A stretch of DNA of 64,000 bases, taken from the NCBI GenBank assembly GCA_013822425.1, contig PNKL01000007.1:1-64000 (forward strand), in the 5' to 3' direction. The number at the start of each line of letters is the position of its first letter. The first letter of the stretch is position 1. The stretch is from Gemmatimonas sp. Lineage in GTDB: Bacteria; Gemmatimonadota; Gemmatimonadetes; Gemmatimonadales; Gemmatimonadaceae. The notes under the pieces are model-generated. The model did not search any database, was not told the origin of the DNA, and saw only the letters and a list, made by a program, of their open reading frames with translations. Made by a program: the position numbers and the translations under genes. Of the stretch, positions 3,455 through 44,770 are shown piece by piece.

Positions 3455-3616
3455 AGGGGCAGGGTGCAGGGTGGGGTGCAGGGGACAGAGTGGGGTGAAG
3501 GGGCACGGGCACGGTGGGGTGCAGGGGACAGAGTGGGGTGAAGGGGCAGGGGCACGGTGGGGTGCAGGGGACAGAGTGGGGTGCAGGGGACAGAGTGGGG
3601 TGCAGGGGCGGGGGGT
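3455..3616. repeat. G-rich tandem repeat block (family G, copy 1)
   Basis: Interleaved units of about 19 bp (TGCAGGGGACAGAGTGGGG) and about 24 bp (TGCAGGGGCACGGGCAC followed by GGTGGGG) fill the spacer after the stop of the M30-like gene. The G-rich strand is the coding strand. Many GGGG runs could form G-quadruplexes in the transcript. Related copies are at 5700-5788, 11816-11908 (opposite strand), 24285-24360 and 32990-33053. Confidence 0.85.
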
Positions 3617-5699: not shown

Positions 5700-5788
5700 G
5701 CGGGGACGGGTGCAGGGTGGGGTGCGGGGGCACGGGCACGGTGGGGTACACGGGCAGGGGCACGGTGGGGTGCGGAGTGCGGGGGAGC
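5700..5788. repeat. G-rich tandem repeat block (family G, copy 2)
   Basis: The spacer between the aminopeptidase stop and the convergent helicase stop is filled with GGGGCACGGGCACGGTGGGG-type units. The G-rich strand is again the coding strand of the upstream gene. Confidence 0.8.
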
Positions 5789-10928: not shown

Positions 10929-11714
10929 ATGATCCCTACGATACGCTGCCTCGCCGTCTTCGCCACCGTCGCCTTCGCGGCCCCACTCGCGGCCCCACTC
11001 GCGGCGACGCTTGCTGCGCAGGATGCGCCGCCCACGTCAGGCATGGACGTCATTGCGCGCATGCGGTCCCGGCACGCCGGAGAATGGTACAAGACGCTCA
11101 CCTTCCGCCAGACCACCACGATTCGTCGGAGCGACGGGCGCGACACGGTGCAAACGTGGTACGAAACGCTGCGGTACACGCCCGAGCGTGGCACGCAGCT
11201 GCGCATTGACGTCGCGCCGCTCGTGAACGGCAACGCCTCCATCTCCACGTGGGATTCCACATGGGTCATTCGTGCCGACACCCTGGCCGCCGTGCGCGCG
11301 AGCGGGAATCCCTTCCTGGCGCTGATCGAGGGGGCGTACATGCAACCGGTGGGGGAGACGGTCCGGCAACTGGCGCCGCTCGGCTTCGATCTCTCGAAAC
11401 TGCGCACCGCCGCGTGGAATGGGCAGGCGGTGTGGATCGTGGGTTCCACTGATCCCGCCGACACCACCTCGGCGCAATTCTGGGTGGAAGACCAACACCT
11501 GATGGTCGTGCGCATCGTGCTGTCGGGTGGGGCGGGTCGTCAGCCGCTCGACATTCATCTCGGCGCGATCGTGCCGTGCGGCAAGGGATGGCTCGCGACG
11601 AAGGTCGAGATGCTGCAGAGCGGGCAGCGCCGGCAGCTGGAAGAGTATCATGACTGGCGCTGCGATGTCACGGTTGACCCGAGAGTCTTCGATCCGCATG
11701 CGGGAAAACGGTAA
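10929..11714 (+). CDS. Secreted protein of unknown function (LolA/outer-membrane-lipoprotein-sorting-like)
   Basis: 261 residues from ATG 10929 (an in-frame ATG at 10908 adds 7). Signal peptide MIPTIRCLAVFATVAFAAP...LAAQ contains a short PLAA duplication. The mature protein is rich in alternating beta segments (EWYKTLTFRQTT, DTVQTWYETLRYTPERGTQL, SISTWDSTWVIR), reminiscent of LolA/LolB-like half-barrels, but I see no diagnostic motif. It is divergent from lipB. A purine-rich repeat and a strong hairpin follow its stop. Export is well supported; function is not. Confidence 0.6.
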   Translation: MIPTIRCLAVFATVAFAAPLAAPLAATLAAQDAPPTSGMDVIARMRSRHAGEWYKTLTFRQTTTIRRSDGRDTVQTWYETLRYTPERGTQLRIDVAPLVNGNASISTWDSTWVIRADTLAAVRASGNPFLALIEGAYMQPVGETVRQLAPLGFDLSKLRTAAWNGQAVWIVGSTDPADTTSAQFWVEDQHLMVVRIVLSGGAGRQPLDIHLGAIVPCGKGWLATKVEMLQSGQRRQLEEYHDWRCDVTVDPRVFDPHAGKR

Positions 11715-11782
11715 GAGAGACAACAGAGAGACAACAGAGAGACAACAGAGAAACAACAGAGAAACAACAGAGAGACAACAGA
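11715..11782. repeat. 11-bp tandem repeat (AGACAACAGAG, family A), six units
   Basis: Six units of AGACAACAGAG/AAACAACAGAG begin a few bases after the stop of the secreted protein and run straight into a GC-rich hairpin. The purine-rich strand is the coding strand. The same family follows lpd, gcvP, gcvH, the RAM-domain gene and the lipoprotein gene at 43832. Confidence 0.9.
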
Positions 11783-11806
11783 GGGCGGCGCAACATTGCG
11801 CCGCCC
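11783..11806 (+). terminator. Bidirectional hairpin terminator
   Basis: GGGCGGCGCAA and its exact complement are separated by 2 nt, then TTCT follows. It lies between the convergent secreted-protein and M14 peptidase genes and can serve both. Confidence 0.7.
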
Positions 11807-11815
11807 TTCTGCGTG

Positions 11816-11908
11816 TTCCTGTCCTTGCATTACGCTCTGCACCCTTCCCCCGCACCACACCCTGTTCCCGTCCCCTGCACCACACTCTGCCTCCTTCCTC
11901 TGCACCTG
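11816..11908. repeat. Degenerate G-rich repeat on the minus strand (family G)
   Basis: Read on the minus strand, directly after the M14 peptidase stop, GTGGTGCAGGGGACGGG, GTGTGGTGCGGGGG and related units appear. They resemble the blocks at 3455 and 5700, so the coding-strand G-rich orientation holds here too. Confidence 0.6.
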
Positions 11909-13222: not shown

Positions 13223-13436
13223 GAGAGCTCCAGAAGCAATTGGCGCAAGTACGACGACCCTGAGAGAATACGAAAGAATGAGACAGAGTGCGACAGAGAA
13301 CGGCAGAGAACGGCAGAGAACGGCAGGGATGCGGCGCTGGACTCCCCAACGCGAGAGGGGTGCGCGGCGTTGTGCCGGCACCCCTCTGTTGTCTCTCTGT
13401 TGTCTTTCTGTTGTCTCTCTGTTGTTTCTCTGTTTC
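13223..13436. repeat. Composite repeat and hairpin between lpd stop and M14 peptidase start
   Basis: From the lpd side (right to left) come family-A 11-bp units (13388-13436), then a hairpin with arms 13354-13362 and 13379-13387, then on the other side three to four 10-bp units of GGCAGAGAAC (family B, 13272-13328). The two arms carry different repeat families, unlike the near-perfect palindrome at 43712. The hairpin is a plausible lpd terminator. Confidence 0.75.
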
Positions 13437-14840
13437 TCAGGCGTGGATCATTTTGCCCATCGAATCCAGCACCGCCTCCGCCACCGCCTCGCTCAGCGTG
13501 GGGTGCGCGTGGATCGCCAGGTCGATCTCTTCCACGGTGAACTCGTTCTCGCGCGCCACGAGCAGCTCGTGGATCAGCTCCGTGACGTGCGGGCCCACGA
13601 GGTGCGCGCCGAGGATCTCGCCGTACTTGGTGTCGCGGATGATCTTCACGAACCCTTCCGTCTCGCCCGCCGTGCGGGCCCGGCCGTTCGCGCTGAACGG
13701 GAACTTGCCGACCTTGTAGTCGAGCTTCTTCTCCTTGCACTGCGCTTCGGTCAGGCCGATGGACGCCACCTCGGGGCTGCAGTAGGTGCAGTTGGGGATG
13801 TTGCCGTAGTTGATGGGGTGGTGGTGGTGACCGGCGATGATCTCGGCGACGACGATTCCCTCGCGCTCGCCCTTGTGCGCCAGCATCGGCGGTCCGGCGA
13901 CGTCGCCGATGGCGTAGACTCCCTTGGCCGTCGTCTCGAGCCGGTCGTTCACCTTGATGAAACCGCGATCGGTGAGCTGCACGCCGACGTCCTTGAGTCC
14001 GATATTCTCGATGTTCGCGGCGCGCCCGGCGGCGACGAGCACCTTCTCGACGACGAGCTCCTGCTTCTGGCCGCCCACCTCGACGGTGAGCGTCACGCTG
14101 TCCTTGCCGACCTTGGCGCCGGAGAGCTTGGCGCCGGCGAGCACGTCGATGCCGCGCTTCCTGAACGAGCGCGCGACTTCAGCCGAGCTGTCCTCGTCTT
14201 CGAGCGGCAGGATGCGCGGCATTACCTCGATGACGGTCACCTTGGTGCCGAAGGCGTTGAAGACGTCGGCGAACTCGCAGCCCACGGCGCCGGCGCCGAC
14301 CACCGCCATCGTCTTGGGGGCCTTCTCGAGCACCAGCGCGTCGTCCGACGAAATGATCGTCGTCTTGTTCAGTTCGAGCCCGGCCTGCGGCAGGCCCTTG
14401 ACGCGCGAGCCGGTGCCGATGACGAGTGCCTTGGTGGCGGTGTGCGTCTCGGTCTTGCCATCGGCGGTGGTGACTTTCACCGTCTTGCCCGCGCCGAGCA
14501 CGCCCGTCCCCTTGATCCAGGTGACCTTGTTCTTCTTGAACAGGAACTCGACGCCCTTGGAGTTCTTGGTGGAGACGTCGCGCGAGCGCTTCATCGCCAC
14601 GCCATAGTCGAGCGTGATGTCGCCGACCTTGACGCCGAACTCGGCGGCGTGCTTGAGCCGGTTGGCGAGGTGCGATGACTCGAGCAGCGCCTTGGCGGGG
14701 ATGCAGCCCCAGAGCACGCAGGTGCCGCCGAGCCCTTCGCGCTCGATGACGCCGACGGTCAGGCCGAGCTGCGAGGCGCGGATGGCGCCGACGTAGCCCG
14801 CCGGGCCGCCACCGAGGAAGATGATATCGAAGTTCGCCAT
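13437..14840 (-). CDS. lpd: Dihydrolipoyl dehydrogenase (E3)
   Basis: 467 residues. E3 reoxidises the dihydrolipoyl arm of E2 with NAD+, and can also serve the glycine cleavage system. Features: FAD-binding GGGPAGYVGAIRASQLG at residues 11-27, redox pair GGTCVLWGCIPAKALL (Cys at ~42 and 47), NAD-binding VVGAGAVGCEFADVFNAFG, FAD contact GVYAIGDV, and C-terminal HAHPTLSEA with the His-Glu dyad. The redox motif reads CVLWGC rather than the common CLNVGC. Last gene of the lipA-pdhABC-lpd run; a repeat-filled gap separates it from pdhC, so it may also have its own promoter. Confidence 0.95.
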   Translation of the reverse strand: MANFDIIFLGGGPAGYVGAIRASQLGLTVGVIEREGLGGTCVLWGCIPAKALLESSHLANRLKHAAEFGVKVGDITLDYGVAMKRSRDVSTKNSKGVEFLFKKNKVTWIKGTGVLGAGKTVKVTTADGKTETHTATKALVIGTGSRVKGLPQAGLELNKTTIISSDDALVLEKAPKTMAVVGAGAVGCEFADVFNAFGTKVTVIEVMPRILPLEDEDSSAEVARSFRKRGIDVLAGAKLSGAKVGKDSVTLTVEVGGQKQELVVEKVLVAAGRAANIENIGLKDVGVQLTDRGFIKVNDRLETTAKGVYAIGDVAGPPMLAHKGEREGIVVAEIIAGHHHHPINYGNIPNCTYCSPEVASIGLTEAQCKEKKLDYKVGKFPFSANGRARTAGETEGFVKIIRDTKYGEILGAHLVGPHVTELIHELLVARENEFTVEEIDLAIHAHPTLSEAVAEAVLDSMGKMIHA

Positions 14841-14844
14841 GGGG

Positions 14845-14937
14845 GAGACAGATGGTAGGAGGTAGATGGTGGACGGTAGATGAGGTGGTGCGATGGTCGT
14901 GATCTACCATCAACCATCCACCCTCTACCATCAGCCG
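14845..14937. repeat. GATGGTAG-type repeats forming an inverted repeat (family D)
   Basis: Direct units of GATGGTAG(A/G)GG... on one side and their complements on the other face each other around 14890-14900. It lies after the pdhC stop, before lpd. The same words recur at 26757-26788 after the POT transporter. Confidence 0.7.
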
Positions 14938-24265: not shown

Positions 24266-24284
24266 ACACTGAAACTACAGGAAC

Positions 24285-24360
24285 GGTGCAGGGTGGAGTG
24301 CAGGGGCACGGGCACGGTGGGGTGCAGGGGCACGGGCACGGTGGGGTGCAGGGGGGAGGG
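24285..24360. repeat. G-rich 24-bp tandem repeat (family G)
   Basis: Two clean units of GGGGCACGGGCACGGTGGGG plus flanking pieces. Unlike copies 1 and 2 it lies in a divergent upstream region rather than after a stop codon. Confidence 0.8.
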
Positions 24361-32989: not shown

Positions 32990-33053
32990 GACGGGTGCAG
33001 GGTGGGGTGCAGGGGCAGGGGCACGGTGGGGTGCGGGGTGCAGGGAGTGGAAA
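32990..33053. repeat. G-rich tandem repeat (family G), divergent region before gcvP
   Basis: GTGCAGGGTGGGGTGCAGGG followed by GCAGGGGCACGGTGGGG units on the plus strand between divergent genes. Confidence 0.75.
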
Positions 33054-33221: not shown

Positions 33222-36080
<2,859 letters not shown>

Positions 36081-36200
36081 AAAGACAACAGAGAAACAAC
36101 AGACAAACAACAGAGAGACAACAGACAGAAAAGGCAGAGGTCCGGAACTCGCGTGCCGGACCTCTGTTGTCTGTCTGTTGTCTGTCTGTTGTTTCTCTGC
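36081..36200. repeat. Large inverted repeat of 11-bp units around a hairpin (family A)
   Basis: Between convergent gcvP and gcvH. Left arm: ACAACAGAGAA/ACAACAGACAA-type units; core stem CAGAGGTCCGG (36135-36145) and CCGGACCTCTG (36156-36166); right arm: the complementary CTGTTGTCTGT units. The whole spacer can fold as one long imperfect hairpin. Confidence 0.9.
36135..36166. terminator. Bidirectional terminator core between gcvP and gcvH
   Basis: Perfect 11-bp stem with a 10-nt loop. The right flank gives a T-rich run for gcvP and the left flank gives one for gcvH transcripts. Confidence 0.7.
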
Positions 36201-36205
36201 GCCAG

Positions 36206-36607
36206 CTACTGTCCGCCGCCACCGGACTCCAAGTGCTTCTCGTACGCTTGGGCGTCCATCAATGCTGCGACGTCTGCTGGCGCCACTCGTAGTTTGAGCA
36301 TCCAGCCGTCCCCGTAGGGATCGCTGTTGATGAGTGACGGCTCGGCGTCGAGGCGCGGGTTGACTTCGAGCACTTCGCCCGCCACCGGGCTGTAGAGGTC
36401 GGACACCGCCTTCACGGCTTCGATGGTGCCGAACGAGTCATGCGCGCCGAACGTGGCGCCGGGCTTCGGTAGTTCAAGGTAGACGATGTCGCCCAGCTCA
36501 CCCTGGGCGTAGTCGGTGATGCCCACCACAACCACGGTCGGGTCGGCGGTCGGCTTGAGGTATTCGTGGGAGTTGGTGTAGCGAAGATCGGCGGGTATCG
36601 AGGACAC
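36206..36607 (-). CDS. gcvH: Glycine cleavage system H protein
   Basis: 133 residues from GTG 36607, which has GGAG 8 nt upstream; a longer TTG start at 36628 is less likely. Lipoyl-lysine motif TIEAVKAVSDLYSPVAGEV with Lys near residue 64. Also VGITDYAQGELGDIVYLELP and NPRLDAEPSLINSDPYGDGW. Carrier of the aminomethyl group, lipoylated by the lipB/lipA products encoded elsewhere in this window. A TAGAAT hexamer lies about 40 nt upstream as a possible -10. Confidence 0.95.
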   Translation of the reverse strand: MSSIPADLRYTNSHEYLKPTADPTVVVVGITDYAQGELGDIVYLELPKPGATFGAHDSFGTIEAVKAVSDLYSPVAGEVLEVNPRLDAEPSLINSDPYGDGWMLKLRVAPADVAALMDAQAYEKHLESGGGGQ

Positions 36608-36664
36608 GGATCGCTCCGGATGCTGCAAGGTGTATGCGAATTCTACCGGACGCGTCCGATAGGT

Positions 36665-42172: not shown

Positions 42173-43354
42173 ATGTCGCATCCATTCGTGCCGTCGCCAA
42201 ACGTCGCCTCCATCCAGGAGTCGGCGACCATCGCCGTCTCGCAGCGCGCCAAGGCGCTCCGCGCCGCCGGCCGCCCGATCATCGACCTCGGGGCCGGCGA
42301 GCCGGACTTTGACACGCCGGCATTCATCCTGGACGCGACCAAGGCCGCGCTCGACGCGGGCCACACCCGCTACACCGCCGTGGATGGCATTCTCCCGCTG
42401 CGCGAGGCGGTCGCGGCGGACGCGACGCGTCGCCGTGCCGGGCGCGACGCGGCGGTGACGACTGGCGAGGTCGTGGTCTCCACCGGCTCCAAGCAATCGC
42501 TGCACAACGCGACGTTCTCGCTCTTCGGGCCGGGCGACGACGTGCTGCTCCCCGTGCCGAGCTGGGTCAGCTACGTCGAGATGATCGGCCTGGCGCGTGC
42601 GAGGGTGATCGGCGTGCCTGGCGACCCGTCGCGGGGGCTCAAGATCACGCCGGCGCTGCTCGAGCGGCATGCCACGCCGCGTACGCGCGGCCTGATGCTC
42701 AACTCGCCGACGAATCCGACGGGCGCCGTGTACGACGCCGATGAGCTGCGCGCCATCACCGACCTTGCTGCCGCGCGCGGCTGGTGGCTGGTCAGCGACG
42801 AGATCTACGCGCGCATCACGTACGACGTGGCGGAGGCGCCGTCGGTGCTTGACGTGGCGGAGCGTCGTGACAACCTCGTGGTCGTCAACGGCGTCGCGAA
42901 GGCGTACGCCATGACCGGCTTCCGGATTGGCTGGTCGGTGGCGCCGCGCGCGGTGTCGCAGGCGATGACCGCCTTGCAGTCGCACACCACGTCCAACGCC
43001 GCCACGGAGTCGCAATACGCCGCGCTCGCCGCGCTGACGCACACGGCGGAGGCGAACGCAGCGGTGCGCTCGATGGTCGGCGAGTTCCACGCGCGCTGCG
43101 ACGCCGCGCGGGCCATCCTCTCGGCGATCCCGGGGCTCGAACTGGTGGAGCCCGATGGCGCGTTCTACCTCTTCCTCAAGGCGCCGGGTGGCGACGGCAC
43201 CGCGTTCGCCACGCGCCTGCTCGACGACGAGGGGATCGCCGTGGTCCCCGGAGCGGCGTTCGGGACGCCGGAGTGGGTGCGCGTGTCATATGCCGCCGCG
43301 CGCGCCGACGTGGAGGCCGGCATGCACGCCATCGTCCGAACCTGGCGGGCGTGA
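42173..43354 (+). CDS. Class I/II pyridoxal-phosphate aminotransferase (aspartate aminotransferase-like)
   Basis: 393 residues. Fold type I: IDLGAGEPDFDTPAFILDA, HTRYTAVDGILPLREAVA, NSPTNPTGAVYDADEL, SDEIYARITYD, PLP lysine in VVNGVAKAYAMTGFRIGW (about residue 243), and the Arg of VRVSYAAA. Matches the Igamma AAT group, using 2-oxoglutarate as amino acceptor. Followed 70 bp later by a RAM-domain gene. Divergent from the pseudo-helicase with only 53 bp between starts. Confidence 0.9.
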   Translation: MSHPFVPSPNVASIQESATIAVSQRAKALRAAGRPIIDLGAGEPDFDTPAFILDATKAALDAGHTRYTAVDGILPLREAVAADATRRRAGRDAAVTTGEVVVSTGSKQSLHNATFSLFGPGDDVLLPVPSWVSYVEMIGLARARVIGVPGDPSRGLKITPALLERHATPRTRGLMLNSPTNPTGAVYDADELRAITDLAAARGWWLVSDEIYARITYDVAEAPSVLDVAERRDNLVVVNGVAKAYAMTGFRIGWSVAPRAVSQAMTALQSHTTSNAATESQYAALAALTHTAEANAAVRSMVGEFHARCDAARAILSAIPGLELVEPDGAFYLFLKAPGGDGTAFATRLLDDEGIAVVPGAAFGTPEWVRVSYAAARADVEAGMHAIVRTWRA

Positions 43355-43424
43355 CCGGCGACCGAACGCGCGCTATGTTGGATTTCGTCCCGTTTCGTGC
43401 TCCTTCCCCAGCATCGGTGTTGCC

Positions 43425-43703
43425 ATGATCACGACCATTGTTCTCGTCAGGGCCGAACCCGCGCTGATCCCAAAATGCGCGGCGGCGCTTGCCGGCATCG
43501 AAGGAGTCACCGACGTCTACTCCGTGTCGGGCGAGTGGGACCTCGTCTGCATCATCAAGGTTGCGGAGTACGACGAGATTGCGCACGTCGTCACGGAGGA
43601 GTTTCCCAAGGTGCCGGGGCTGGTGCGCACGACCACGCTGACCGCGTTCAGGGCCTACTCGAAGGCGGATGTGGAGCAGGCCTTTAACATCGGCGTTGAG
43701 TAA
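43425..43703 (+). CDS. Lrp/AsnC ligand-binding (RAM) domain protein without HTH
   Basis: 92 residues consisting only of the RAM fold: TTIVLVRAEPALIPKCAAAL, GVTDVYSVSGEWDLVCIIKV, then the GLVRTTTLTAFRAYSK strand. Stand-alone RAM proteins bind amino acids and may modulate Lrp-type regulators. It sits just after an aminotransferase gene, which fits a role in amino-acid sensing (inferred). Confidence 0.88.
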   Translation: MITTIVLVRAEPALIPKCAAALAGIEGVTDVYSVSGEWDLVCIIKVAEYDEIAHVVTEEFPKVPGLVRTTTLTAFRAYSKADVEQAFNIGVE

Positions 43704-43715
43704 GCCCAGGCTTCA

Positions 43716-43835
43716 AGAGAGACAACAGAGAGACAACAGAGAAACAACAGAGAGACAACAGAGGGGCGTTCCGGAGTGTCGCTGCGCCCCTCTGTTGTCT
43801 CTCTGTTGTTTCTCTGTTGTCTCTCTGTTGTTTAT
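43716..43835. repeat. Near-perfect ~47-bp inverted repeat of 11-bp units (family A)
   Basis: Left arm 43722-43768 (ACAACAGAGAG-type units ending GAGGGGCG) and right arm 43785-43831 are complementary over about 47 nt with a 16-nt loop. It fills the space between the convergent RAM gene and a lipoprotein gene. The innermost CAGAGGGGCG/CGCCCCTCTG stem can act as a terminator in both directions. Clearest example of the architecture described in the findings. Confidence 0.92.
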
Positions 43836-44770
43836 CTCTGTCTGATGCACCACTGCTGCGGCACCCGCAGCGTCTCATGCCACTTTCCGTTCGTCCGCGT
43901 GAGCACCAGAAGATCGTTGGTACTGGCGTAGCGCCACGATTCCACGAAAATCTCGTCGGTGCCGTCGCCCGTGAGGTCCAGATGGTCGAGCAGGCGCTGG
44001 AACTCCACGAGGCGCGCCTCGCCGCTTTCGACGTGCTTGTACGTGACCTGATACCCCTTGCCGTCGGCATCGTCGCCGAGCACGAGGAAGTGCGTGGTGT
44101 GGCCGGCGCCCGGTCCGGTGTCTCCCGCGTTCGCATCCACCTGATTCGCCACGAGTGTTGCCCGGCTGCCGCCCGCCATGCTGATGGCACGCGCGCTGAA
44201 CGACGCGGTGTCGATGTCGACCGTGTCGAGTCCCTCCGTACGCAGTGCCAGCAGCGCGATGGCGCGCACTGCCGCGCCGAGGTCGCGCGGCGCCTGCGCC
44301 CTCGTCGGCGCACTGCCGCCGGCGACGCTGAGCGACAGGAACTCGAAGGCGGGGTCGAGCGAGGCGCGGGTCTTCAGCGTCACCGCCGCCATCGGGCGGG
44401 CCTCACGGCAGCCGGGAAGCTCGTACAGCGGCTCGCTGTCCGGCTCCCACATCCGGCGCGACACGACCACCGTGCCCGCGTGCTGTCCGTCGCGGTAGAC
44501 GGGATATTCGGTTCCCGGCTGGAAGTACGCGGAGTCGAGCCGGCGCCAGTCAGCGTCCGGCAGCTCGATCGGCTTGACGCTGCCATGGATGACGGCCGCG
44601 ATGGGCACGAGACGCGCGGAGTCCAGGGTGCCGAATGCCTGAAAGACCAGCGGCGGCTTGGTGGCCACGTCGAACGAGGGCGGCGGCGAGTCGTCGCCCG
44701 GTTCCTGCTTCGCCTTGTCGCATCCCGCGGCGAGGGCTAGGATGCTCAGCATGAGTGCGGAACGACGCAT
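43832..44770 (-). CDS. Lipoprotein of unknown function
   Basis: 312 residues from ATG 44770. Lipobox in LALAAGCDK. The mature part is not clearly assignable: LVPIAAVIHGSVKPIELPDA, GTVVVSRRMWEPDSEPLYEL, and near the C-terminus LVEFQRLLDHLDLTGDGTDE, an FG-GAP/EF-loop-like DxTxDGxxE stretch, then an end with NDLLVLTRTNGKWHE. The gene start overlaps the divergent nuclease gene by about 20 bp. Confidence 0.65.
   Translation of the reverse strand: MRRSALMLSILALAAGCDKAKQEPGDDSPPPSFDVATKPPLVFQAFGTLDSARLVPIAAVIHGSVKPIELPDADWRRLDSAYFQPGTEYPVYRDGQHAGTVVVSRRMWEPDSEPLYELPGCREARPMAAVTLKTRASLDPAFEFLSLSVAGGSAPTRAQAPRDLGAAVRAIALLALRTEGLDTVDIDTASFSARAISMAGGSRATLVANQVDANAGDTGPGAGHTTHFLVLGDDADGKGYQVTYKHVESGEARLVEFQRLLDHLDLTGDGTDEIFVESWRYASTNDLLVLTRTNGKWHETLRVPQQWCIRQR
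44715..44750 (+). promoter_or_regulatory. Predicted leaderless promoter of the nurA-herA run
   Basis: TTGTCG (44715-44720), 17-nt spacer, TAGGAT (44738-44743), 7 nt, ATG 44751. Good -35 and spacing put +1 at the start codon. The promoter lies inside the 5' part of the divergent lipoprotein gene. Confidence 0.5.

Follow-up and report, generated by a model that had tools for sequence, protein, structure and literature searches.

The palindrome between two convergent genes

A palindrome with two arms was found between two convergent genes in the window, by which we mean the whole 64,000-nucleotide stretch of DNA analysed here. The upstream gene (43155-43703, + strand; start codon uncertain) encodes an Lrp/AsnC ligand-binding domain (PF01037, E 5.4e-12) and ends with a TAA at 43701-43703, and the end of this Lrp/AsnC-type protein falls at the same position in other genomes of the genus. 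The facing gene (43832-44752, - strand) has no Pfam match and is a neighbour conserved in the genus. The purine (5') arm at 43716-43768 on the + strand starts 12 nt past the Lrp stop and has the form AGAGAG-(ACAACAGAGAR)n with ACAACAGAGGGGCG as its final part. The pyrimidine (3') arm at 43785-43837, reads on the - strand as a purine array placed after the facing gene's stop, and it overlaps the TTA at 43832-43834 which represents the TAA stop of that gene.

Each arm is 53 nt long and the two are 96% complementary across a 16-nt spacer; the near-perfect pairing of about 47 nt at 43722-43831 in the original prediction is real and somewhat larger than stated there. The centre is occupied by a GC core hairpin, AGAGGGGCG-(loop)-CGCCCCTCT, at 43760-43793, of which related genomes retain the GC stem with a differing loop. 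The RNA of 43704-43834 is predicted to form a single stem of -101 kcal/mol, as compared to -39.7 +/- 3.6 kcal/mol for the shuffled sequences (z -16.9; none of 200 shuffles as good). A stable GC-rich hairpin is therefore present at this site, and no canonical T-run terminator was found at 43400-44200.

Other arrays in the window

The window contains 23 matches to ACAACAGAGAG with at most one mismatch; shuffled sequences give an expectation of 0.5 and never more than three. They form six tandem arrays at four places, namely 11720-11785 (+), 13382-13436 (-), 36085-36128 (+), 36160-36199 (-), 43716-43765 (+) and 43788-43837 (-), in agreement with the repeats predicted at 11715, 13388, 36081 and 43716. 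At all four places the coding strand carries the purine repeats, which lie 0-18 nt past a stop codon, as had been proposed.

The convergent gcvP/gcvH pair (36085-36199) is the second two-armed 11-mer site in the window. The purine array at 36085-36128 (+) comes after a gcvP-like gene with its TAG at 36078-36080, and the complementary array at 36160-36199 (-), which comes after a gcvH-like gene (36206-36628, - strand), pairs with 36089-36125. The inverted repeat thus formed (36089-36125/36163-36199) extends over 37 nt with 95% complementarity.

The six-unit purine array at 11720-11785 (+) starts 5 nt past the TAA at 11712-11714 and is followed by a GC hairpin (AGGGCGGCGCAA/TTGCGCCGCCCT; 11782-11807) that is near-identical in the ortholog of a related genome, G005. 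A giant stem is absent here because the facing M14 peptidase gene bears at its 3' end an array of a different family with units of 24-25 bp (11835-11906, purine on the - strand) and not the complement. The five-unit purine array at 13382-13436 (-) lies directly past the stop of a gene of dihydrolipoamide-dehydrogenase type (13437-14840, - strand; assigned by Pfam) and is followed by a GC hairpin (AGAGGGGTGC/GCACCCCTCT; 13354-13387), with co-directional neighbouring genes and a different 10-bp family beyond the hairpin. The proposal that the complement follows the hairpin between convergent genes hence holds at 36085-36199 and 43716-43837 and fails at 11715, while at 13388 the purine array past a stop and the GC hairpin were correctly described. 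Giant hairpins occur only where genes converge and both ends carry one family.

Distribution of the 11-mer

The window belongs to a Gemmatimonadota MAG of 3.57 Mb in 206 contigs with 68% GC (G000), and the other genomes of the genus are designated G001-G010. The named relatives of the Lrp gene come from five Gemmatimonadetes/Gemmatimonadota MAGs and one MAG labelled bacterium; all are MAGs, in which assembly can collapse repeat arrays. Exact dimers of the 11-mer number 98 + 77 (about 175) genome-wide in G000. The dimer pattern is present in nine of the eleven genomes of the genus, G000 included, and in none of 30 genomes from other genera, and a three-unit pattern matches five of 249 genomes of the phylum, all within the same genus. 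The 11-mer dimer arrays are thus confined to one genus. When arrays and not single copies are counted, they are almost exclusively intergenic.

Rfam 15 gave no match above the gathering score in the window, so no known RNA family was recognised there, and no description of tandem arrays of this kind in Gemmatimonadetes was found in the open-licence literature. Seven IMG/VR contigs (L166-L172) also carry tandem ACAACAGAGAG as a 22-mer; their GC content of 41-47% and the different sequence context led us to reject a viral origin, and their repeats are apparently an unrelated convergence.

Position and register relative to gene ends

The arms were surveyed over about 1 Mb, made up of seven long contigs and 19 repeat-bearing stretches that were picked because the repeat is present in them, and this yielded 58 arms at 43 sites. 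Genes were called by a codon-usage script written for this analysis, so gene starts and some strands are uncertain. A location past the last gene of the unit, as expected of an intrinsic terminator, was found for 40 of the 58 arms, which have a called same-strand stop at most 18 nt away, and for one tRNA, despite a few sites that sit between closely spaced co-directional genes (C3:92596, L147:3992 and L154:4040, all without a strong hairpin). The tRNA case is an array that begins a few nucleotides past tRNA-Gly; tRNA-Gln and tRNA-Phe are followed by other purine repeats. These tRNA ends indicate that what the arrays mark is where a transcription unit ends, and not just a stop codon. About four arms adjoin a gene start instead (C1:105066, C6:18959, L137:3640 and L151:5238). 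Random placement and orientation, the outcome that would have told against the original prediction, is therefore not what was found. A feature exclusive to convergent genes is ruled out by one-armed arrays after the stops of co-directional genes.

The first ACAACAG mostly lies 4, 5 or 6 nt past the stop, in the registers TAG-AGAG-ACAACAG, TAA-GAGAG-ACAACAG and TGA-GAGAG-ACAACAG, and for 26 of 39 arrays the phase is one of three out of a possible eleven. Adjacency to a stop was also found for 19 of 21 arms in three related genomes (10/12 in G005, 4/4 in G001 and 5/5 in G008).

The stops at array-bearing ends of G000 are shifted to TAG/TAA (32 of 39; P 0.008 against other 3' ends whose gap is 60 nt or more). 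Creation of the stop codon by the array could be read into this excess, but orthologs conserve the stop position and we rejected the idea.

Hairpin, tail and spacing

The usual order is stop codon, purine array, GC hairpin and then either T-enriched sequence or a pyrimidine array. The last unit is often ACAACAGAGGG, which opens the GC stem, with CCCTCTGTTGT as the closing strand. Of the arms, 56% precede a hairpin that is stronger than 95% of shuffles, as compared to 25% of all 3' ends, and the 12 nt past strong hairpins contain 4.7 T at arrays against 2.4 at other strong hairpins. The stable GC hairpin of an intrinsic terminator is therefore found overall, and is missing at some co-directional sites; these hairpin-less arrays make the purine array separable from the hairpin. 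At 96% of array ends, and at 60% of the others, 27 nt or more separate the stop from the hairpin. In E. coli, a ribosome at the stop represses a terminator whose hairpin lies close by, and termination is maximal at distances beyond 27 nt (PMC4824070).

Repeat families and purine-pyrimidine polarity

Tandem Repeats Finder identified further intergenic families with units of 7, 10, 13 and 24 bp, so that the 11-mer, which was rightly predicted to be stop-adjacent, is one of several tandem families with a common polarity. In intergenic regions with two arrays, the purine array precedes the pyrimidine array in 44 cases and the reverse occurs in one. The predicted shared architecture of purine repeats, hairpin and pyrimidine repeats is borne out by this order and by the three related genomes, with the exception of the co-directional arrays that lack a hairpin. 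Even when no arrays are called, the purine content declines from left to right across the intergenic regions of G000 contigs C1-C7, whether these are convergent, co-directional or divergent. The same left-to-right gradient was observed in the other genomes sampled.

With this purine-first order, a palindrome transcribed in either direction gives a transcript whose 5' arm is purine and whose 3' arm is pyrimidine; this speaks for RNA and not for a DNA cruciform. A cruciform as the main function is disfavoured as it gives no reason for the 44:1 polarity.

Arrays make up 18% of the intergenic bases in convergent, 9% in co-directional and 5% in divergent regions. With all families pooled, pyrimidine arrays ahead of starts are nearly as frequent in co-directional gaps as purine arrays behind stops, which is unlike the prediction for a pure terminator.

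Several sites of other families were also observed. A two-armed palindrome of a 10-bp family (GGCAGAGAAC) lies between co-directional genes at 47792-47842/47851-47901, with 51-nt arms that are 82% complementary. A 7-bp family (GGTAGAT/ATCTACC) forms a palindrome at 14850-14932 that fills a 97-bp gap between two co-directional genes; the corresponding gap in G007 measures 1 nt, and both arms have different units in G008. A G-rich family of 24-43 bp (GGGGCAGGGGCACGGTGGGGTGCA) occurs at 3455-3589, 5700-5775, 24283-24354 and 32997-33045, and is also found in divergent regions before gene starts. Beyond the window, contig C7 of G000 combines a GGCGGAC purine arm with a AATCGCAATCCTG pyrimidine arm at 94394-94512, and a similar mix of families is retained in G005.

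Evolution of the arms

The Lrp 3' end was compared in all eleven genomes, with the G006 contig stopping just past the stop codon. G008 has the G000 stem almost exactly with a different loop, whereas G005 and G002 have AAGCAGAGAGA units in both arms, G009 a mixture of ACAGAGTAGA and 11-mer units, and G010 and G001 the 11-mer with other cores. Only the GC core remains in G007, the element is absent in G004, and G003 has instead an ordinary U-tract terminator, with TTTTT behind its hairpin. Swapping arms between species at this 3' end in eight genomes costs a mean of 15 kcal/mol (27 of 28 pairs). Both arms at this end therefore change together and pairing is kept despite the differences in unit. 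Over all syntenic regions the penalty of a swap is 4.3 kcal/mol with arrays and 1.4 kcal/mol without; it is driven by convergent sites (7.2 kcal/mol) and is weak elsewhere. At other loci, the GC core is retained across species while the flanking arrays switch family.

Within G000, rare unit variants are common to both arms of one site in mirrored order (P 0.001; L150, L141 and 36084). A few sites have been homogenised separately in each arm, such as L146 with AGAG throughout one arm and AGAA throughout the other. In the pyrimidine arm of the G005 Lrp 3' end, the new unit is loop-proximal and the 11-mer-like units are distal. This pattern, together with the mirrored variants, fits mirroring by template switching at the hairpin plus slippage. 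Such template switching is an established source of RNA stems and of their maintenance (PMC8794818), and the arms could be under selection for pairing as well.

Comparison with known systems

The elements resemble bidirectional intrinsic terminators (A-tract, GC hairpin, T-tract) in their location at gene ends, in the GC core hairpin and in that convergent genes share one hairpin. In both, the purine-rich 5' and T-enriched 3' flanks can pair and so lengthen the stem; pairing of the two tails of a terminator has been noted (PMC1852404). They differ in that the flanks are tandem 11-mers or other units with arms of up to about 100 nt, mixed C/T replaces the U-tract, and one-armed and hairpin-less forms occur. 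The uptake signals (DUS/USS) of Neisseria and Pasteurellaceae, short genome-wide repeats of 9-11 nt, serve as inverted pairs that form the arms of terminator hairpins and are most enriched between convergent genes (PMC1852404). There too a short genome-wide repeat has been recruited as hairpin arms; however, single copies pair into the hairpin itself, whereas here tandem arrays flank a GC core.

According to the available portions of Gupta and Pal 2021 (PMC8355165), hairpins soon after stops terminate across phyla with no need for a poly-U trail. Our elements share the position of the hairpin shortly past the stop codon, whereas those portions describe neither tandem arrays nor mirrored arms. 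The TAACTGA heptamers of Beggiatoaceae and Cyanobacteria are, in the part of the report that is available (PMC4679880), abundant intergenic arrays with a fixed orientation and a near-constant distance of a few nucleotides from a codon. Intergenic tandem arrays, a fixed orientation and a near-constant spacing are common to both systems, but the heptamers, as described in that part, are a different unit located mostly upstream of start codons with no comparable hairpin architecture, and the arrays here are at 3' ends.

Proposed function and alternatives

The elements are probably bidirectional intrinsic-terminator modules with tandem-repeat flanks, comprising a purine spacer, a GC hairpin and a pyrimidine tail, and the element looks like an unusual, fast-evolving form of the ordinary transcription-stop signal. 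We infer both the termination and the role as a spacer. Each element would be the 3'-end module of one transcription unit: an unstructured purine-rich tandem array directly past the stop codon or mature tRNA end would lead into the GC hairpin, the presumed intrinsic terminator, which would be followed by T-enriched sequence or by the complement of the array that belongs to the facing gene. In the latter case, one hairpin would serve both directions at convergent genes. As for the mutational mechanism, replication slippage may lengthen and shorten the arrays as far as the stop codon, and the arms may be kept mirrored by template switching at the hairpin, by selection for pairing, or by both. 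Position and register, the tRNA ends, the hairpin with its T enrichment, the polarity, the spacing of at least 27 nt, the covariation of the arms, the mirrored variants and the kept GC cores together make this the probable reading. Counting against a pure terminator are the absence of a canonical U-tract at the focal site, the hairpin-less co-directional arrays, the roughly four arms at gene starts and the similar frequency of arrays before starts and after stops in co-directional gaps.

The main rival explanation treats the arrays as neutral or selfish minisatellites, which spread by slippage and copying in free non-coding DNA and are halted by coding sequence, with palindromes arising only as a mutational by-product of template-switch mirroring at existing hairpins. 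The rapid turnover of unit families at one place, the wide variation in arm length, the independent homogenisation at L146 and the presence of arrays in every intergenic class would all be expected from such satellites, and the mirroring is an established mutational process (PMC8794818). However, they predict neither the 44:1 polarity nor the fixed register of 4-6 nt to the stop, nor the arrays right past a tRNA end, nor the hairpin and T enrichment after the arrays, and we regard this explanation as possible but clearly the less likely one. It is doubtful that the arrays belong to a 3'-end system particular to this lineage, with a dedicated factor that recognises the 11-mer or propagates it. 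In such a system, copies would pass from one gene end to another in the register of the stop, older unit families would be replaced over time, and the RNA would act as a common 3'-end tag for protection, localisation or termination.

REP/BIME-like or transposon-derived palindromes would be mobile units that are moved by a Y1 (RAYT-type) transposase and that serve to stabilise the 3' ends of mRNAs or to bind a nucleoid protein. They would account for the many dispersed, intergenic palindromic copies, and one Y1_Tnp domain exists in the genome. Its gene is a single, partial copy at the end of a contig, the 9 kb that were read contain no 11-mer array, and the elements have no fixed boundary: arm length, family and pairing vary and many sites are one-armed. 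With neither a fixed unit with shared ends nor a repeat-flanked Y1-type transposase gene, such an origin is very improbable and was rejected. Equally slim is the chance of Rho loading, in which the pyrimidine strand (C/T-rich, G-poor, with a period of about 11 nt) would be a rut-like site and the 3' array would block antisense readthrough from the facing gene, a role that suits the C/T richness of the arms and the peak of array density between convergent genes, whereas pyrimidine RNA beside its own purine arm would be sequestered in the stem and co-directional ends carry arrays too.

The many dispersed sites, the several unit families and the eleven related genomes, with arms that change together, are a natural experiment on the origin and upkeep of long RNA stems. 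The elements bring many apparent stretches of intergenic junk in such genomes under one architecture, and they suggest that a high-GC lineage can form its 3' ends out of rapidly evolving purine/pyrimidine repeats in place of U-tracts.
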